Shown piece after piece: positions 12,506 through 20,155 of a stretch of 64,000 bases of DNA. Location of the stretch: positions 25,044-89,043 of the forward strand of contig NZ_SIRS01000008.1 in the NCBI RefSeq assembly GCF_004310335.1. The letters are read 5' to 3'. The notes under the pieces are model-generated. The model saw only the letters and a list, made by a program, of their open reading frames with translations. It did no database searches and had not been told where the DNA came from. Numbering within the stretch: position 1 is the stretch's first letter; each line of letters opens with the position of its first letter. This DNA comes from Hyunsoonleella pacifica (lineage in GTDB: Bacteria; Bacteroidota; Bacteroidia; Flavobacteriales; Flavobacteriaceae). The position numbers and the translations under genes were made by a program.

Positions 12506-14557
12506 ATGTATAAAAAAATATTTTTTCTAGCTTTATTATGTTTGCTCTGGCCTAGTTTTTCAATAGCTCAAAACTCAGACTCTCATACAAAAAATAAAAT
12601 ATTTAAAAATAAAAACCTCTACTCAGGTAAAAGAAATATTTATTCATCAAGTAAAAAAGGTAATACACCTGTGTATTCATTTTGTAGTGATAATGGCTTC
12701 GTAAATATTGAAATTAATAAGATTAGAGTTGATATTATAAACTCTTATGTTTTAGAGGATGATACTGAGAGTATAATTATTGGAACATCTTCTGGCAAAC
12801 TTTTAAAAATAAGTAATTTCTCTTTCGGAAAGCCCTCCATTGAAGTTCTATGCGATTTTAATAAAGGGCTAACAGATGTAGCTGTAGATAAACACAAAAA
12901 CTACTATGGTGTGTTTTTCGATAAAATTTTTAGTATTAGAACTAGTTCCTGTACAACTATGGATTTACCCATAAACATCTTAGATAACGGTAATTTAAAC
13001 TCTTTATCATTCGACAAGAAAGGAAACTTATATTTTGGCTATGGAAATAACTCCATTGTACAAGCATATAATCCAAATAAAATTCCTAAAAGTTATGTTT
13101 GGCATGATTTTCAAGTTGGAAGTGCAGGAGGAGACTTTGTACAAATAAATGATAAAATATATATTTCTTGGATAAATTCTGGATTTAAATTATATGAAGT
13201 AACCATAGATGAAAATAATGATTATGTATCTTATACAACACTAGATTTTATACCTGAAGAAACTTATGGTTTAGCTGCAGAACTTGGGATATTATATGGC
13301 ATAACACCAGGTTACATCTACGAAATAGATTTAAATAACTCTACCACAATTCCTATATTAAACAATATTTTCCCTCATGGCAATTGGTGGGGAGGAGCAG
13401 GCTTGCACGAGGCTATTCGTTTCAATGTGAATTTTTATGAAAATATATCTGATGCAGAAAATGAAGATAAAAGTTTACCAGACAACTGGGTAAATACTGA
13501 AAAAGGTGGTCAAAAAATTTATTCAAGGATAAACGATCTTGAAAACAACACCTATAAAATTGTAGAAATAATTTTAACTATAAATTCTATCCCAGAAACA
13601 AACGCTATAGTTTCCCATAAAACTTGCTCTATTTATAATGATTCTTTCAACCTACTCGAATTTGATACTATTCTGGTTGATAACTTAACGAATTTAACAA
13701 TTACATACCACAGTTCCCTAGCTAATGCAGAAGAGAATATTAAGAGCCTAGACAAAAGTAATATAAAATATACAGATACAAATAATGGTAACTTGTATGC
13801 TAGGGTTAAAAATAACATTACAGAATGTTATAAAACGCATGAATTCAAAATTAATCTAGGTAGAAAACCCATAGTAAATATAGACGATCAGGTAATATGT
13901 AACGATAATACTTCTGTTATAATTAATGCCAGTACTGGATATAATTCAGATAGGTATTTATGGTCAACAACACAAACTTCTCCTTCTATAGAAATTAGCG
14001 ATACAGGAGAATACTGGCTTCAAGTTACCTCAAATACTGATTGCACAAGTACTTCTTACTTTAATGTCTCTAAATCTGAATCGGCCGAAATAACTTCAAT
14101 AGACATCAAAAATTTTACAGACCCTAATAGCGTTACTGTAAATTTTACTGGAACAAGTGATTATTTATTTCAATTAGATGACAACTTACCTCAATCTTCT
14201 AATACGTTTAACCCTATTGGAATTGGACAACACACCATTAATATTATAGACACAAATGGTTGTGAAACTATAACACGAGAAATAACTGTAATTGATTTTC
14301 CTAAGTTTTTTTCTCCTAACAATGATGGTTTTTTCGATACATGGCACTTAACTGGTACTGATAAATTTACAGATGTTACCATACAAATCTTTGATAGATA
14401 TGGTAAATTATTAAAAACACTATCAAAACTTTCTCCAGGTTGGGATGGTACTTTCAATGGAGAGCTAATGCAAGTATCAGATTATTGGTTTATAGCTAAC
14501 ATTGTTGATGAAGACAGTTCATTTAAAGCGATGGGGCACTTTACCTTAAAACAATAA
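12506..14557 (+). CDS. Type IX-secreted protein with gliding-associated (type B) C-terminal domain
   Basis: The 683-residue protein starts with a signal peptide (LLCLLWPSFSIAQN). Residues about 60-310 are repeat-like and may form a beta-propeller (short stretches such as IIGTSSGKLLKISN and YGITPGYIYEIDL). The middle has Ig-like beta segments, with a motif SYNPSIEISDTGEYW-like region near residues 490-510. The last about 85 residues are a type B sorting domain: FPKFFSPNNDGFFDTW, then IFDRYGKLLKTL, PGWDGTFNG and a terminal GHFTLKQ. This marks it as cargo of the PorU/PorV system. Its ligand or activity is unknown. The stop codon overlaps the operator of the next gene. Confidence 0.85.
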   Translation: MYKKIFFLALLCLLWPSFSIAQNSDSHTKNKIFKNKNLYSGKRNIYSSSKKGNTPVYSFCSDNGFVNIEINKIRVDIINSYVLEDDTESIIIGTSSGKLLKISNFSFGKPSIEVLCDFNKGLTDVAVDKHKNYYGVFFDKIFSIRTSSCTTMDLPINILDNGNLNSLSFDKKGNLYFGYGNNSIVQAYNPNKIPKSYVWHDFQVGSAGGDFVQINDKIYISWINSGFKLYEVTIDENNDYVSYTTLDFIPEETYGLAAELGILYGITPGYIYEIDLNNSTTIPILNNIFPHGNWWGGAGLHEAIRFNVNFYENISDAENEDKSLPDNWVNTEKGGQKIYSRINDLENNTYKIVEIILTINSIPETNAIVSHKTCSIYNDSFNLLEFDTILVDNLTNLTITYHSSLANAEENIKSLDKSNIKYTDTNNGNLYARVKNNITECYKTHEFKINLGRKPIVNIDDQVICNDNTSVIINASTGYNSDRYLWSTTQTSPSIEISDTGEYWLQVTSNTDCTSTSYFNVSKSESAEITSIDIKNFTDPNSVTVNFTGTSDYLFQLDDNLPQSSNTFNPIGIGQHTINIIDTNGCETITREITVIDFPKFFSPNNDGFFDTWHLTGTDKFTDVTIQIFDRYGKLLKTLSKLSPGWDGTFNGELMQVSDYWFIANIVDEDSSFKAMGHFTLKQ

Positions 14558-14581
14558 ACTTTCAATAATTATTGAAAGTTT
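14556..14581. promoter_or_regulatory. Perfect 26-bp palindromic operator at the gbsR-like promoter
   Basis: AAACTTTCAA, a 6-base AT centre, and TTGAAAGTTT form a perfect palindrome. It overlaps the -33 TTG of the promoter and the stop codon of the previous gene. The same 10-base arms recur at 15142-15167 before the following operon. The position implies autorepression by the adjacent MarR/GbsR-type protein. Confidence 0.75.
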
Positions 14582-14601
14582 AGAAATTATTTGTATCTTT
14601 G
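14572..14601 (+). promoter_or_regulatory. Bacteroidota-type promoter for the gbsR-like gene
   Basis: TTG at 14572-14574, a 19-base spacer, and TATCTTTG at 14594-14601 match the TTG-N19-TAnnTTTG consensus exactly. The -33 element lies inside the right arm of the palindrome. The expected start of transcription is about 20 bases before the GTG. Confidence 0.75.
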
Positions 14602-14625: not shown

Positions 14626-15129
14626 GTGGAATATCAAGAAGCCAAAGAAAAATTTATTAGTACCTGGGGAAGTTTAGGATCTATGTGGGGTATCAATAAA
14701 GCTATGGCACAAATTCAATCATTGTTATTCATTTCTACAAAACCATTATCCATGGAAGAGATCATGGAGGAACTTAAAATTTCTCGTGGTAACACTAGCA
14801 TGAATCTCCGCCAATTAATGGATTGGGGTATTGTTTCCAAAGAATTAGTTCCAGGAGAACGAAAAGAATTCTTTACTACTGAAAAAGATGTACAAGAACT
14901 AGCGAGGCATATTGCAAAAGAACGTAGCCGTAGAGAAATAAAACCAGTGATAAAAGTTTTAAAAGAAGTTAGCTCCATTAAAGACGATGGTACTGCAAAA
15001 ACAAAAGAATTAATTAAACAAACAAAGGCTTTACATGATTTAGCTGATACCGCTGATTCCCTATTAAACAAAATAGCAAACCAAGAACAAAACTGGATTA
15101 CTAAATCATTAATGAAATTATTTAAATAA
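14626..15129 (+). CDS. GbsR/MarR-family winged-helix transcriptional regulator
   Basis: The 167-residue product opens MEYQEAKEKFISTWGSLG and has a winged helix-turn-helix at about residues 20-90 (MAQIQSLLFISTKPLSMEEI, then ISRGNTSMNLRQLMDWG). A helical dimerisation tail follows. This is the GbsR-like branch of the MarR superfamily, common in Bacteroidota. I take GTG at 14626 as the start because no in-frame ATG precedes the first helix. Palindromes with identical 10-base arms lie at its own promoter and just after its stop, so it probably represses itself and the downstream operon. The inducing ligand is unknown. Confidence 0.88.
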   Translation: MEYQEAKEKFISTWGSLGSMWGINKAMAQIQSLLFISTKPLSMEEIMEELKISRGNTSMNLRQLMDWGIVSKELVPGERKEFFTTEKDVQELARHIAKERSRREIKPVIKVLKEVSSIKDDGTAKTKELIKQTKALHDLADTADSLLNKIANQEQNWITKSLMKLFK

Positions 15130-15141
15130 AAAATTTGAATT

Positions 15142-15167
15142 AAACTTTCAATATTTTTTGAAAGTTT
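15142..15167. promoter_or_regulatory. Second copy of the palindromic operator, before the membrane/DUF2071 operon
   Basis: The arms AAACTTTCAA and TTGAAAGTTT are identical to those at 14556-14581; only the 6-base centre differs (TATTTT). The element ends 14 bases before the ATG of the next gene. No clear TAnnTTTG lies between them at the right spacing, so it may act by blocking read-through or translation-proximal transcription, or cover an atypical promoter. Confidence 0.7.
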
Positions 15168-15181
15168 TAAAAAATGAAAAA

Positions 15182-15517
15182 ATGAAAAATCTCTTTTACC
15201 TCAATTTAATCTGCCTGTTTTTAGTGATAGGATTTTATTTTGTATTACCTATATATGGTGCTTTAGCACAAATCCCTTTGGGAATAATACAAATAGTATT
15301 CGCTATACTTCTTTATCAAGATTCAAAGGAGCTATCTCCAAAAAACAAAAAACTATTAAACTCCTATTTATTCATTTTACCCACTTGGTTCCTATTTTAT
15401 TTATTAAACAGTTATTTACTAAATCTCGCTTGGGTCTCACTAACATTTCTATTTATTGTTCCCATGCTGATTGCAGTATATTTTGTCATTCTTACTTACA
15501 AATTTCAAAATGAATAA
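15182..15517 (+). CDS. Small membrane protein of unknown function, first gene of the operator-linked run
   Basis: The 111-residue product has four predicted transmembrane segments (about residues 5-25, 29-45, 62-80, 83-104) and a basic loop after the second. I start it at the ATG at 15182 because an upstream TTG at 15158 lies inside the palindromic operator. No family is recognised with confidence. Its stop overlaps the next start (ATGAATAA), so it is coupled to the DoxX-like gene. The context suggests a membrane role regulated by the GbsR-like protein. Confidence 0.7.
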   Translation: MKNLFYLNLICLFLVIGFYFVLPIYGALAQIPLGIIQIVFAILLYQDSKELSPKNKKLLNSYLFILPTWFLFYLLNSYLLNLAWVSLTFLFIVPMLIAVYFVILTYKFQNE

Positions 15518-15905
15518 AAACAACATATTACACTATATAATATTTTCAGTGTGGTTAATTAACGGTTTATTCTGTAAAGTTTTAAACCTTACTCCAAGAC
15601 ATCAGGATATAGTTGCAGAAATAACACATTTTGAGTTCTCTAAAGAACTAACTATAACAATTGGTATTCTTGAAATACTAATGTCTCTTTGGATTCTAAG
15701 TAAGATTAAGCCAAAGTTAAATGCCATAATGCAAATCATAATTATCGCAGTAATGAATATTCTTGAATATATTCTTGTTCCCCAATTATTACTTTGGGGT
15801 AGATTCAACATCATTTTTGCATTATTATTAATTATAGCTATTTACGTTGAAACTTTTCACTTAAACAAATTATCTCAAACCAAATCCTATGCTTTCAAAT
15901 CTTAA
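15510..15905 (+). CDS. DoxX-like integral membrane protein
   Basis: The 131-residue product starts at the ATG at 15510, eight bases inside the previous gene. It has four hydrophobic helices with TPRHQDIVAEI after the first and the motif GILEILMSLWILS in the second, which is the pattern of the DoxX-like (SURF4-related) families. Function is unknown. Its 3' end overlaps the start of the DUF2071 gene at 15889, so translation is probably coupled. It belongs to the operator-linked run at 15.2-18.5 kb. Confidence 0.75.
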   Translation: MNKNNILHYIIFSVWLINGLFCKVLNLTPRHQDIVAEITHFEFSKELTITIGILEILMSLWILSKIKPKLNAIMQIIIIAVMNILEYILVPQLLLWGRFNIIFALLLIIAIYVETFHLNKLSQTKSYAFKS

Positions 15906-16614
15906 AAATCATCCATTTGCAGTAGAGGCATATTTTGAAAGTTCTCTAGTTTTAACGTTTGCTTTCCCAAAAGATGAGCTAGAGCATTTAATCCCTGAAT
16001 GCTTAGAACTAGATACATTCAAAAATAAATGGGCTTTTATAGCAGTAGCTATGGTACAGACCAAAGATTTAAGACCTAAAGGTTTTCCCAAATTTATTGG
16101 GAACGATTTCTTTTTAATTGGGTATCGTATTTTTGTTCGTTACAAAACCAGTGAAGGAAAACGCCTTAGAGGATTATATATTTTGAAATCTGAAACAGAT
16201 AAAAAAAGAATGGCTTTTGTGGGTAATATCTTTACACATTACAATTACTCCTCTACTGATATTAATTTTAGTGATGAAGATGTAACTTCAAATAAATCAA
16301 AATTCAAAATACGTTTTAACTTAGAAGAACAAGAAGATCCTTTACCTACAAAATCCCCGTTTTCAAATTGGAAAGAAGCAAGACGTTTTGCGGGACCACT
16401 GCCTTTTACTTTTACTTACAATAATATCTCAAAAGAGGTTTTAATTATTGAAGGCGTTAGACAAAACTGGAAGCCTTCTCCTATCAAAATAGAAGACTAC
16501 AATATTAACTTCCTGAACAACCTAAACTTAAAAGGTATTGTTTTGGCAAATGCATTTATTATTAATAAAATTCCATATCACTGGAAAAAAGGAAAAATTG
16601 ACTTATGGAACTAA
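15889..16614 (+). CDS. DUF2071 (YqjF-like) protein, copy 1
   Basis: This 241-residue soluble protein opens with NLKNHPFAVEAYFESSLVLTF and has the LEHLIPECLELDTF segment followed by FLIGYRIFVRYKT, the pattern of DUF2071. The family shares the acetoacetate-decarboxylase-like fold, but no catalytic Lys or activity has been assigned that I can map here. A second, very different DUF2071 protein is encoded at 17769-18479. The gene overlaps both neighbours (17 bases with the DoxX-like gene and 10 bases with the methyltransferase gene), so it is firmly part of the operon. Confidence 0.78.
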   Translation: MLSNLKNHPFAVEAYFESSLVLTFAFPKDELEHLIPECLELDTFKNKWAFIAVAMVQTKDLRPKGFPKFIGNDFFLIGYRIFVRYKTSEGKRLRGLYILKSETDKKRMAFVGNIFTHYNYSSTDINFSDEDVTSNKSKFKIRFNLEEQEDPLPTKSPFSNWKEARRFAGPLPFTFTYNNISKEVLIIEGVRQNWKPSPIKIEDYNINFLNNLNLKGIVLANAFIINKIPYHWKKGKIDLWN

Positions 16615-17354
16615 AACGAAAACCATTTCAAGGTGTGCTTAATATTTTAAGCTTTAATAGGCATTTCTATGTGATAGGCTTAATCGCTCTGATATTAATT
16701 TTTACAAGTAAACTTATAATTAATTGGAATACGATACTATTCTATATTGTTATTACAGCTGTTATATATGGTTTAGTAATGCCATTGATAATATCCGCAT
16801 TCGTATATGACTTTTCAGGGTACTATGATTTTAAGTGGTTGGAGAAATTAGACATTCCTAGTTCAAAAAACAACCACATTGTAAATATTAATGCTGGATT
16901 TGATGAGACAAGTTATATTTTGAAGCATAAGTTACCTAACTCGACCCTTGAGGTTTTCGACTTTTATAATCCTGAAAGGCATACAGAAGCTGCCATAATC
17001 AGAGCTAGAAAAGTAAGTTTACTTTATCCAAATACTAAACAAATTGACACCAATAAAATTCCTTTGAAGGATAAATCAGTTGATGTTGTTTTTTTACTAT
17101 CTGCCGCTCATGAAATACGTTCTAATACAGAAAAGATTCAATTCTTAAAAGAATGTAAACGTATCTGTAAAACCAAAGGAAAAGTAATATTAGTTGAACA
17201 CCTAAGAGACGTACAAAATTTCTTTGCGTTTTCTGTAGGATTTACGCATTTCTTTTCAAAAAAAACATGGACAAAGGTATTTAAAGAGGCTGGTTTTAAT
17301 TCATTTACAGAAGATAAGTTTACGCCTTTTATGTCTGTTTTCAAATTCTATTAA
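16605..17354 (+). CDS. Membrane-tethered class I SAM-dependent methyltransferase
   Basis: Of the 249 residues, about 22-80 hold two transmembrane segments (YVIGLIALILIFTSKLII and ILFYIVITAVIYGLVM). The rest looks like a class I methyltransferase: a nucleotide-binding strand and loop at VNINAGFDETSYIL, an acidic end of strand 2 at LEVFDFYNP, DKSVDVVFLLSAAHEI for strand 4 and KGKVILVEHLRD for strand 5. The Gly-rich loop is shorter than usual, so cofactor binding should be treated as likely, not certain. The N-terminal anchor suggests a lipid or membrane substrate, for example a quinone or polar lipid. It overlaps the upstream DUF2071 gene. Confidence 0.75.
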   Translation: MELKRKPFQGVLNILSFNRHFYVIGLIALILIFTSKLIINWNTILFYIVITAVIYGLVMPLIISAFVYDFSGYYDFKWLEKLDIPSSKNNHIVNINAGFDETSYILKHKLPNSTLEVFDFYNPERHTEAAIIRARKVSLLYPNTKQIDTNKIPLKDKSVDVVFLLSAAHEIRSNTEKIQFLKECKRICKTKGKVILVEHLRDVQNFFAFSVGFTHFFSKKTWTKVFKEAGFNSFTEDKFTPFMSVFKFY

Positions 17355-17365
17355 AACATTTAGTT

Positions 17366-17764
17366 ATGAACATTCACATACAAATTATCGGAAGTTTATT
17401 AGTTACCTTAAGCTTAATTCATCTTGCATTTCCAAAATATTTTAATTGGAAAACAGAATTCCAATCACTTAGTCTATTTAACAAGCAAATGGTTGGTGTT
17501 CATACATTTTTTATTGCCTTAATAGTGTTTTTAATGGGATTGCTTTGTTTGTTTTCAACCAAAGAACTAATTACTACATCTCTTGGAAAAACTATATGCC
17601 TTGGTTTAGGTGTTTTTTGGGGAATTAGATTATTGTTTCAACTTTTTGTTTACTCGCCTAAACTTTGGAAAGGAAAAAGATTTGAAACTATAATTCATAT
17701 GCTATTCACTGGCCTTTGGGCATATATAACAATAGTCTTTATGAGTGTTTCATTAAAAATTTAA
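17366..17764 (+). CDS. Small four-helix membrane protein of unknown function
   Basis: The 132-residue product has four transmembrane segments (about residues 5-24, 42-63, 74-93, 108-128). Conserved-looking features are FPKYFNWKTEF after helix 1 and the LFQLFVYSPKLWKGKRFE loop after helix 3. I do not recognise a named family. It lies 11 bases after the methyltransferase gene and 4 bases before the second DUF2071 gene, so it is in the same transcription unit. Confidence 0.7.
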   Translation: MNIHIQIIGSLLVTLSLIHLAFPKYFNWKTEFQSLSLFNKQMVGVHTFFIALIVFLMGLLCLFSTKELITTSLGKTICLGLGVFWGIRLLFQLFVYSPKLWKGKRFETIIHMLFTGLWAYITIVFMSVSLKI

Positions 17765-17768
17765 TATT

Positions 17769-18479
17769 ATGACATTTCTAAAAGCTTACTGGAAAAATCT
17801 TATTCTAATTAACTATAGCATAGATCCAGAAATATTACTACCCTATATACCAAACGGAACCACCTTAGATTTATACAATGGTAAATGCTACATAAGCCTT
17901 GTAGGATTCATGTTTAAAAACACAAAAGTGCTTGGTTTAAAACTTAAAAACCATGTTAATTTTGAAGAAGTAAATCTTCGGTTTTATGTAAAACAAAACA
18001 ACAAAAGAGGTGTTGTTTTTATAAAAGAAATTGTACCAAAACCTCTTATTACTATTATAGCAAATTCCATTTATAAAGAGCATTACCAAACAATGAAAAT
18101 GAAACATACTATAAATGAAAATAAAAAATCAAATTTTTATCAATATCAATGGTTAATCGATAATGAATGGCAGTCTATTTCTGTTACAACAGAAAAGATT
18201 CCTAAAATTATAATGGAAGACACATTGGATGAATTTATAACTGAACACTATTTTGGTTACACTAAAAATGGTTCTAAAACTCTAGAATATGAAGTTGAAC
18301 ACCCAAAATGGAAGCATTTACAAGTAATAGGTTATGATATTGATGTTGATTTCAAAAAAACATATGGGCAAAGTTTTAAATTTTTAAGCTCAAAAAAGCC
18401 CAAATCTGTCATTCTTGCAATAGGTTCTAAAATTACTGTTAGAGGCAAAAAAAAGCTTCAAAATCAAATTCTTAGATAA
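17769..18479 (+). CDS. DUF2071 (YqjF-like) protein, copy 2
   Basis: The 236-residue product shows the classical YqjF form of DUF2071: an N-terminal WKNLILINYSIDPEILLPYIPNGTTLD segment (only its key positions match copy 1), GKCYISLVGFMF, NLRFYVK, and a C-terminal hydrophobic SVILAIGSKITV strand. It is clearly diverged from copy 1 at 15889, which lacks the GxxYxxLVGF signature. The family function is unknown. It is the last gene of the operator-linked run, followed after about 48 bases by an ECF sigma factor gene. Confidence 0.8.
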   Translation: MTFLKAYWKNLILINYSIDPEILLPYIPNGTTLDLYNGKCYISLVGFMFKNTKVLGLKLKNHVNFEEVNLRFYVKQNNKRGVVFIKEIVPKPLITIIANSIYKEHYQTMKMKHTINENKKSNFYQYQWLIDNEWQSISVTTEKIPKIIMEDTLDEFITEHYFGYTKNGSKTLEYEVEHPKWKHLQVIGYDIDVDFKKTYGQSFKFLSSKKPKSVILAIGSKITVRGKKKLQNQILR

Positions 18480-18495
18480 AATGGAAATTTTACCT

Positions 18496-18503
18496 TATTT
18501 TTG
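18496..18503 (+). promoter_or_regulatory. Putative -7 element for the ECF sigma gene
   Basis: TATTTTTG matches TAnnTTTG and lies 24 bases before the ATG at 18528. No TTG is seen at 17-20 bases upstream, so transcription could also continue from the preceding operon. Confidence 0.35.
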
Positions 18504-18527: not shown

Positions 18528-19079
18528 ATGCCTGATCATAAAATTGACCCTAATAAATGGATAGACCTCTATTCTGATTACCTTTTTAATTACACCATTA
18601 CTCGTGTAAGTGATCGTGAGATTGCTCAAGATTTGGTACAAGAAACATTTTTAGCAGGGCTAAAATCCATGAAAAACTTTAAGGGAGAGGCTAGTGAGCG
18701 TACTTGGCTAATTTCAATTTTGAAACGTAAAATAATAGATCATTACCGAAAAATTAATTCTAATAAAGGCAAAGCAGAAGTAAGAATTAATTACAACGAT
18801 GCTGAAAGTGAAGGAGATTGGTTGGAAGAACGTGTAGCAGATCCTTTCGACAAAACAGCCGAGGATACTTTACAAAATAATGAGTTAGGCGATGCCATAC
18901 ATAATTGCTTAGGTAAATTACCTCAAAAACAAGCAGATGTTTTTAAGATGAAAACCATTTTAAATTACGAAACAGAAGTAATCTGTAATGAACTAGATAT
19001 TACTGCGTCTAACTTATGGGTTATCATCCACAGAGCAAGAACTGCCATGGCAGATTGCCTTGAAAAAAATTGGTTTTAA
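18528..19079 (+). CDS. ECF-type RNA polymerase sigma factor
   Basis: The 183-residue product has sigma region 2 at about residues 20-85, with DREIAQDLVQETFLAG and FKGEASERTWLISILKRKIIDHYRK. Region 4 is at about 130-178, with LGKLPQKQADVFKMK, then CNELDITASNLWVIIHRAR as the recognition helix-turn-helix. I use the ATG at 18528; a TTG at 18501 would add nine residues and sits in the -7 element. ECF factors direct RNA polymerase to specialised promoters and are usually held by an anti-sigma factor, for which the next small gene is the obvious candidate. Confidence 0.88.
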   Translation: MPDHKIDPNKWIDLYSDYLFNYTITRVSDREIAQDLVQETFLAGLKSMKNFKGEASERTWLISILKRKIIDHYRKINSNKGKAEVRINYNDAESEGDWLEERVADPFDKTAEDTLQNNELGDAIHNCLGKLPQKQADVFKMKTILNYETEVICNELDITASNLWVIIHRARTAMADCLEKNWF

Positions 19080-19081
19080 TT

Positions 19082-19336
19082 ATGAAAAAAGGATTATTAT
19101 TTATAAGCTGTGACGAGGCAAAACATATTTGTGATAAAGCACAATATGATGAGGCATCCTCATGGGAAAAAGTTAAGCTCAATATAAGATTATCTTGGTG
19201 TAGAATTACTAAGGCTTACTATAAGCGCAATACAAAGCTTACTGAAGTTTTAGAATCTGCAAAGACAGATTCTCTTCATCCTGAAGAGCGTAAATCTATG
19301 GCATCTAAATTTCAAGAAGAATTATCTAAGCACTAA
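19082..19336 (+). CDS. Small partner of the ECF sigma factor, degenerate zinc-finger anti-sigma-like
   Basis: The 84-residue soluble protein follows the sigma gene by two bases. Its layout (SCDEAKHICDKAQYDEASS, then WEKVKLNIRLSWCRITKAYYKRN) parallels the zf-HC2 anti-sigma domain, in which a first Cys-rich helix is followed by an HxxxCxxC helix. Here the His becomes Asn or Ser and only one of the last two Cys remains, so zinc binding is probably lost or changed. It has no transmembrane segment. From memory, homologues in databases are sometimes called glycine dehydrogenase because gcvP is nearby; nothing in the protein supports that name. Confidence 0.7.
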   Translation: MKKGLLFISCDEAKHICDKAQYDEASSWEKVKLNIRLSWCRITKAYYKRNTKLTEVLESAKTDSLHPEERKSMASKFQEELSKH

Positions 19337-20155
19337 TAATATAAATAGCCACAAAACAGGAATACTTTCTACCCAAAACGAACTGTAATATTTGTTTTGG
19401 TTTTTTTGTGCAAATATTAAAAACAAAACAGTTATTAACTGCACTAGAGCTAAAACCAAAACTTTGGTTTTAGATATATCATCCTTAAAAAATTCCAAGA
19501 TGAAAATAAATAGTGCCATAATAGTCCCAATTATCTTGGTGTACCTTACGCCAATCCTTTGCGGAATGGTAGATAACCTTAGACTATCGAACTTTAAATC
19601 GCGAATCTCAAAGGGAAGTATTAACAAAATAACAAAGCAAAAGCGTTGTATACCTGTAACATAAACATCAGTGTTTATTTCATATACGCTATTCAATAAA
19701 GGTAAAAAAACAGTAACACCGCTCCAAACAAGAGCAATCACATACACTTTTAAACCACCAATACTTCTCAGGTTATGGTTTTTATCAATAAAAAAACGCT
19801 TTGGTAAAAATGGTATCGCGTAAAAAAAAGTGATTAAACCAAAAGCACTGAGATAAATCATTATTTCTAATCGCAAATTAAGGGTGTAGTATACCATTAA
19901 AAGAAAACAGAAAAAAGAGAAAATCTGGATAGCTTTTAACCACCCTGCCAAACTTCTATGATGGAATTTAGCGAGTCCAAAATACTTCACAAAATTATAC
20001 CCCGTAATTGTAGCATAAAACACAAAATAAAGCACATCTATATCGTAGTACAAATTAAACTCCAGAAGTGTTACATACGTTAAAGCATAAACCGCTATAG
20101 CCACATGAATACTGCTATTGATGTAGAAATTAAAAAGTTGCTTTAAAACCTTCAT
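19322..20155 (-). CDS. UbiA-like polytopic membrane protein
   Basis: The 277-residue product has about eight transmembrane helices. Two polar stretches sit where UbiA prenyltransferases bind prenyl diphosphate: YNFVKYFGLAKFHH near residue 53 and LPFEIRDLKFD near residue 180, the second having the acidic DxxxD-like spacing. The first lacks the usual NDxxDxxxD, so catalytic function as a prenyltransferase is doubtful. Its 3' end overlaps that of the sigma partner gene by 15 bases in convergent orientation. It is widespread in Flavobacteriaceae by my recollection, but without an assigned role. Confidence 0.65.
   Translation of the reverse strand: MKVLKQLFNFYINSSIHVAIAVYALTYVTLLEFNLYYDIDVLYFVFYATITGYNFVKYFGLAKFHHRSLAGWLKAIQIFSFFCFLLMVYYTLNLRLEIMIYLSAFGLITFFYAIPFLPKRFFIDKNHNLRSIGGLKVYVIALVWSGVTVFLPLLNSVYEINTDVYVTGIQRFCFVILLILPFEIRDLKFDSLRLSTIPQRIGVRYTKIIGTIMALFIFILEFFKDDISKTKVLVLALVQLITVLFLIFAQKNQNKYYSSFWVESIPVLWLFILLVLR

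Follow-up and report, generated by a model that had tools for sequence, protein, structure and literature searches.

We analysed computationally a stretch of 64,000 nucleotides from Hyunsoonleella pacifica (assembly GCF_004310335.1, contig NZ_SIRS01000008.1, forward-strand positions 25,044-89,043; the window below), in which a gene for a GbsR-like regulator with two candidate operators precedes six tightly packed genes, all on the plus strand. An earlier note on this DNA had read the six genes as one unit with one function. The conserved unit is formed by the middle four genes, DoxX-DUF2071-methyltransferase-M2, which are kept together across the Bacteroidota. The regulator locus occupies a mostly fixed position in the chromosome, and its cargo varies among species.

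The first packed gene encodes M1, a small membrane protein of 111 amino acids (aa) recognised by hydropathy (15182..15517). It is followed by the four cassette genes, which encode a DoxX_3-family membrane protein of 131 aa (15510..15905; PF13781, 56.7 bits, cut-off 25), the DUF2071 protein D1 of 241 aa (DUF2071-1; 15889..16614; PF09844, 58.2 bits, cut-off 27), the class I S-adenosylmethionine (SAM)-dependent methyltransferase MT of 249 aa (16605..17354; PF08241, Methyltransf_11, 33.4 bits, cut-off 21.2) and the predicted four-helix membrane protein M2 of 132 aa (17366..17764), which has no family match above cut-off. The last gene encodes a second DUF2071 protein, D2, of 236 aa (DUF2071-2; 17769..18479; PF09844, 180.2 bits, cut-off 27). 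All six genes start with ATG at these coordinates. M1 and DoxX overlap by 8 bases, DoxX and D1 by 17, and D1 and MT by 10; the gaps are 11 bases between MT and M2 and 4 bases between M2 and D2. The six genes likely form one operon. The gene order, coordinates and domain calls of the earlier note, both DUF2071 assignments among them, all hold. Hydropathy gives four hydrophobic stretches each in DoxX and M2, two at the N terminus of MT and none in the DUF2071 proteins; M1 has three, so that the claim of three four-helix membrane proteins stands for two of them.

The regulator gene (14626..15129, plus strand; 167 aa, GTG start) codes for a GbsR/MarR-like winged-helix protein according to domain scans. 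The predicted operator O1, a perfect 28-bp palindrome, lies 5' of this gene at 14555..14582, and the predicted operator O2, with perfect 10-base arms and a 6-base centre, lies at 15142..15167, 14 bases before M1, the first cargo gene. Downstream of D2, the right border of the locus is formed by the gene for an extracytoplasmic function (ECF) sigma factor (18528..19079, plus strand; 183 aa, Sigma70_r2/r4_2) and that for a probable anti-sigma factor (19082..19336, plus strand; 84 aa), whose match to NF052368 is weak (E=0.013, below cut-off).

Conservation of the four-gene cassette

Relatives of MT were found in 29 of 349 genomes of the family and in 10 of 296 genomes of the phylum, the genome of the window being counted in both samples, and in 411 stretches of a species collection. 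Partner genes were looked for in the best 80 of these 411 stretches, 79 of which had an MT open reading frame (ORF); the remaining one (L135) was dropped from the partner count. D1 was present at 78 of the 79 loci, M2 at 76 and DoxX at 73; at L102, a 32% identical MT stands without partners and is not a cassette. The same is seen in the even family sample (D1 in 27, DoxX in 26 and M2 in 25 of 28) and in the phylum sample, where D1 and M2 accompany MT in 9 of 9 cases and DoxX in 8, the single miss lying at a contig start. Gene order and strand do not vary among the loci in which all four genes were called. The hosts include Flavobacterium, Lacinutrix, Algibacter, Pedobacter, Sphingobacterium, Niastella and Chryseobacterium, and other orders and classes are represented.

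The neighbourhoods of relatives therefore bear out one part of the earlier proposal, that the genes are kept together and not scattered, for four of the six. A six-gene unit was rejected, as M1 and D2 vary and belong to the variable cargo of the regulator locus; a single function for all six tightly coupled genes is narrowed accordingly.

Cassettes linked to the regulator occur, for instance, in Lacinutrix mariniflava AKS432, Meridianimaribacter flavus and Mariniflexile gromovii (loci L167, L169 and L126). At two loci (L084, L094) the cassette occupies another site, and a regulator of 50% identity, accompanied by two operators, still precedes it. No operator at three or fewer mismatches was found at the 14 family cassettes without a regulator, one of which (L078) has only 0.8 kb of upstream sequence. 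The cassette of four Pedobacter loci stands behind genes that by eye encode enoyl-CoA-hydratase-like and reductase proteins (e.g. L112:7087-8857).

Candidate operators and promoters

The pattern AAACTTTCAATNNTTNTTGAAAGTTT matches the window at 14556-14581 and 15142-15167, with 0.01 matches expected in shuffled sequences, and O1 and O2 are the only exact core matches in the whole 4.13-Mb genome. Four further genomic sites were found at two mismatches, as against one for the reversed control pattern. One near-palindrome (G000:C23:305650) was considered as a further member of the regulon and dropped; the neighbouring genes are presumably rimP and nusA.

The Bacteroidota -7 element has the form TAnnTTTG. 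A motif match of this type, TATCTTTG, occurs at 14594..14601 on the plus strand and belongs to the predicted regulator promoter. The corresponding -33 TTG (14572-14574) lies inside O1, 19 bases from TATCTTTG, and O1 thus covers the predicted promoter. A second motif match, TATTTTTG, is located before the sigma gene (18496..18503, plus strand), which likely has its own, separate promoter. Both elements recur in the set of regulator loci described below. Of 63 loci with an upstream operator, 59 have TAnnTTTG after it (1.4 expected), and of 51 loci with a sigma gene behind the cargo, 39 have the motif before that gene (2.6 expected). At O2 the motif is absent, both before or within the operator (0 of 61, 2.4 expected) and after it (0 of 61, 0.8 expected), other promoter types, e.g. 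that of ECF sigma factors, not having been searched for there. With a -7 element after O1 and none at O2, the cargo is probably read from the regulator promoter, O2 being a second site before the cargo.

The regulator family

The regulator passes the cut-offs of MarR_2 (32.6 bits, cut-off 27) and HTH_5 (33 bits, cut-off 22) and is thus a winged-helix protein of the MarR superfamily. With CudC, a curated equivalog model of GbsR type (NF047500), it scores 51.7 bits, below the cut-off of 218, and hence we call it only GbsR-like. The Pfam scan found no MerR or B12 domain, the protein scoring as MarR/ArsR type. Relatives at E<=1e-40 are present in 57 of 299 genomes of the even family sample, and a search of the genus gave 10 of 12 genomes, the genome of the window being included both times. 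A gene for a DJ-1/AraC-type regulator (c25) stands shortly 5' of the GbsR-like regulator gene in five loci (e.g. L103:7270-8265).

The regulator locus and its variable cargo

The set comprises 64 loci in which a regulator gene was called: 54 of the family, among them the window, nine more from the genus and one from another family of the order; three of the 57 family genomes (G288, G228, G029), in which no regulator ORF was called, were left out. Operators were counted at up to four mismatches over 18 fixed bases. Both operators are present in 61 of the 64 loci, two loci have the upstream operator only, and in the remaining one the contig starts at the regulator gene; the upstream copy is thus found in 63 loci and the downstream copy in 61. 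In the 1.02 Mb covered by the loci, all 42 exact matches and all 33 matches with one mismatch are at operator positions, as are 33 of 36, 12 of 13 and 5 of 31 matches with two, three and four mismatches, respectively.

The left border of the locus is usually a gene for an M3 peptidase, preceded by what we take to be purK and purE. On the right side, 51 of the 64 loci have the sigma gene behind the cargo, and the border usually consists of the sigma factor, the anti-sigma factor, a polytopic membrane protein and gcvP. In the window, a 683-aa gene (12506-14557, plus strand) lies between the M3 peptidase and regulator genes; the C-terminal end of its product resembles a gliding-motility-type sorting domain. 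This gene is missing in G002 (L026), where the regulator gene follows the peptidase gene. The polytopic membrane protein of the window (277 aa; 19322-20155, minus strand) has no Pfam match above cut-off and looks UbiA-like by eye; in most of the regulator loci viewed, its gene has the anti-sigma gene on one side and gcvP on the other.

The cargo between these borders differs from locus to locus; for part of it we coined labels (c14, c48, c117, c128, MT2). The most frequent member is a DUF1731/epimerase-type reductase (38 of 64 loci; the DUF1731 and Epimerase matches pass the Pfam cut-offs), followed by M1-like proteins (28 loci) and by c128 and c117 (24 and 22 loci), which together make up a membrane-protein pair. 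A second methyltransferase of about 292 aa, MT2, whose CMAS match passes in Pfam, occurs in 20 loci (e.g. L105:8022-8900), and the membrane protein c14, about 146 aa long, in 15 (e.g. L222:6780-7220). The MT cassette itself is present in 13 loci, an SRPBCC-like protein in 11 and a longer one in 5 (SRPBCC matches below cut-off), D2 in 10, a protein with a DCC1-like domain passing in Pfam (DCC) in 7, c48 in 4, and a fatty-acid desaturase, also passing in Pfam, in 2. The desaturase, SRPBCC-like and reductase genes agree with the membrane theme of the earlier note. Even within the genus of the window the content differs: G002, G003 and G007 have c117-c128-reductase-D2, the window has the MT cassette, and G004 has the cassette together with MT2 and the reductase. 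The D2 gene of G002 (L026:8168-8767) ends at an in-frame TGA and encodes 199 aa as against 236 in the window; the copies in other relatives are longer.

The cassette and the c117/c128 pair do not occur together (0 of 12 cassette loci vs 15 of 42 others in the family, Fisher p 0.024; 0 of 13 vs 24 of 51 among all loci, p 0.001), and the cassette is rarely found with the reductase (1 of 12 vs 28 of 42, p 0.0005); as these tests were applied to related loci without correction for the tree, mutual exclusion is a lead only. Comparison of c14 with M2 by hhalign gives a probability of 40.9 and E 2.8e-4, and with c14 as the query M2 genes are matched with E values as low as 1e-8. Judged by these profile and sequence matches, c14 is likely a distant relative of M2.

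To look beyond the family, loci of 20 of 79 matched genomes were taken, mostly the better matches. In three no regulator ORF was called, and the remaining 17 divide into four that belong to the family, each with both operators, and 13 from outside it. In 8 of these 13 at least one of the reductase, DCC, SRPBCC-like, c128 and M1-like genes stands behind the regulator, and one of the eight also has a desaturase.

Proteins of the cassette

The structural model of MT (predicted local distance difference test, pLDDT, 86.8) has long helices at 19-38 and 43-70, in agreement with the two hydropathy stretches, and the N-terminal membrane anchor claimed earlier is thus predicted by both approaches. The Methyltransf_11 score and the fold identify MT as a class I SAM methyltransferase. 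The fold matches listed are mostly tailoring O-methyltransferases from plants and from natural-product pathways, and PF00891 is precomputed for many of 120 listed relatives of MT. Identity of MT among cassettes is 44-75%. The M2 model has a pLDDT of 90.0, and three histidines, H19, H46 and H111, are invariant in 22 M2 sequences.

Proposed mechanism

Our preferred reading, which we hold at a little below even probability, is that the packed operon, built on the four-gene cassette, is kept repressed by the GbsR-like protein encoded next to it, acting at two palindromes, and that its products methylate a membrane lipid or quinone. Repression is suggested by the position of the operators and by the precedent of the family. 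A dimer of the regulator would bind O1 and O2. When bound, it would shut its own promoter and so keep down a single transcript that covers the regulator gene and extends into the cargo; O2, just 5' of the first cargo gene, would add a second block. A ligand or membrane stress would free the operators. MT, anchored by its two helices, would then methylate a hydrophobic membrane molecule, most likely on oxygen. DoxX and M2 may provide a membrane platform, and the DUF2071 protein, an acetoacetate-decarboxylase (ADC)-like barrel, may bind or process the substrate. A parallel envelope-stress response would come from the ECF sigma/anti-sigma pair, which likely has its own promoter. As an argument from sequence comparison, the control mechanism is fairly well founded; the chemistry we infer.

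Several observations weigh against this reading. The regulator is linked to 14 of 28 family cassettes, the window counted, and is not a fixed partner; the operators flanking it, also claimed earlier, are near-universal at its own locus, and its dedication to the cassette holds for about half of the cases. Among the 79 loci of the species collection the linkage is seen in at least 22, a lower bound because at L122 the regulator was not called by the ORF script and two operators are present; the 57 loci without a called regulator are correspondingly an upper bound. On a tree of 87 MT sequences the linkage changes at least eight times, whereas the well-supported branches force only one change; this tree leaves out identical sequences, MT ORFs that are weak or short, and rows that lack a linked regulator and have less than 3 kb of upstream sequence. 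Outside the family the association loosens: only 4 of the 13 loci have both operators, 5 have sites on one side and 4 have none. DNA looping between the operators was rejected: their 26 distinct spacings show no helical phasing (R ~0.17, p ~0.46), and looping is thus without support.

The chemistry meets objections as well. N- and C-methyltransferases are found among the fold matches of MT with Z near the best, and O-methylation is therefore not decided. Motif I of methyltransferases is usually glycine-rich; MT carries NINAGFDE in its place, and it scores 19.8 bits with Methyltransf_2 (PF00891, COMT type), below the cut-off of 22.3. The fold matches listed for M2 include no solved relative, which does not establish a new fold. 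DUF2071 has an ADC-like fold in which the Schiff-base lysine of ADC is reported absent in the accessible part of PMC4520260.

Alternative explanations

The tailoring O-methyltransferases among the fold matches of MT would also suit a cassette that makes or tailors a membrane-held pigment or secondary metabolite (carotenoid, flexirubin-like or quinone-derived), with MT not acting on bulk lipid, and the available portion of PMC5401885 describes for Corynebacterium a MarR-type protein that represses carotenoid genes. However, fold similarity does not reveal the substrate, Pfam finds no pigment-backbone gene in the window operon, and at the 79 loci, where most neighbours were clustered and not annotated, no family except the regulator-locus genes recurs widely beside the cassette. 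We consider this explanation unlikely, though the strongest of the rivals. Slightly less probable is an operon for photo-oxidative or oxidative stress akin to the LitR/PplR regulons, with the GbsR-like protein and the ECF sigma pair in place of a B12 light sensor. The types of cargo overlap, since reductase genes, a methyltransferase with a CMAS match and adjoining genes for an ECF sigma and probable anti-sigma factor are present, and the sections seen of PMC9758184 and PMC5241685 place UfaM, photolyase and a short-chain dehydrogenase under LitR-type control and report blue-light induction of cyclopropane-fatty-acid (CFA) synthase. The regulator is nevertheless MarR/GbsR-like, not MerR/B12, and no photolyase gene is present in the window operon, the cargo of other loci not having been searched for photolyases.

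In the reverse division of labour, DoxX, M2 and the small membrane proteins would do the work, as a redox or transport complex in the membrane, and MT and DUF2071 would modify or assemble it. The invariant histidines of M2 fit this, and the DoxX proteins of mycobacteria have a known link to oxidative-stress complexes. MT is conserved as strongly as its partners, which by sequence comparison suits an active enzyme, and we consider such a complex rather improbable. The four genes might finally be mere neighbours that travel together by transfer and share no biochemistry, as the patchy distribution of the cassette (29 of 349 family genomes) and its many chromosomal positions would allow; the same order across classes of the phylum at the MT divergence given above, and the tight or overlapping arrangement of the genes, argue for a shared function, and we regard this possibility as very improbable. 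A defence system was also considered and rejected: in PADLOC the six genes have no match at E<=0.01, and the regulator is matched only by models that contain a helix-turn-helix (HTH).

Implications

Beyond the proposed lipid- or quinone-methylating operon, and with less confidence than we place in it, we suggest that the locus represents an unrecognised class of modular membrane-adaptation loci. A fixed site, bordered on one side by a repressor gene with two operators and on the other by an ECF sigma/anti-sigma pair, would receive species-specific membrane-modifying modules (DoxX-DUF2071-methyltransferase-M2, the membrane-protein pair, reductase/SRPBCC/DCC, the desaturase) under one switch, the MT module making an undescribed membrane compound. 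If so, one switch governs different membrane chemistries in different species. The variable cargo permits a direct test, as one kind of repressor should be accompanied by different membrane products in related species.

The earlier note knew of no described system with this content. We likewise found no published description of the cassette or of the regulator locus in the literature searched, most subscription papers being outside its coverage; to that extent the conserved module, at an unusual variable-cargo locus, is apparently undescribed. A phylum-wide four-gene unit for which no function was found in the literature is a good target in the search for a new membrane compound. DUF2071, an ADC-like family for which the portion of PMC4520260 at hand gives no function, gains a genetic setting.

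Comparison with known systems

Characterised members of the GbsR/OpuAR/CydE group are repressors, and Bacteroidetes GbsR neighbourhoods give "no consistent picture", according to the available text of the survey PMC6207618, which also reports that the aromatic cage for choline or betaine is absent outside the osmostress group of GbsR-type regulators. The regulator locus supplies a consistent neighbourhood, lacking in that text, for a subgroup of the GbsR-like proteins of Bacteroidota. As in the known members, a winged-helix regulator of the MarR superfamily adjoins genes predicted to be under its control; unlike them, it matches CudC weakly, and the operon has no osmolyte or cytochrome bd genes. 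D1 and D2 both score above the Pfam cut-off for PF09844, the DUF2071 family with its ADC-like fold. MT shares the class I fold and a weak sequence match with UbiE/MenG, but its membership there was rejected (TIGR01934, 29.8 bits, cut-off 158.35), and it has a predicted membrane anchor and an altered motif I. The LitR/PplR light regulon with UfaM, as described in the part of PMC9758184 that was available, differs in the class of its regulator and in its core genes, and the window operon lacks its photolyase. Like the present locus, it is a set of genes under common regulation that includes a fatty-acid-modifying enzyme and a short-chain reductase, and of the known systems it offers the closest working analogy.

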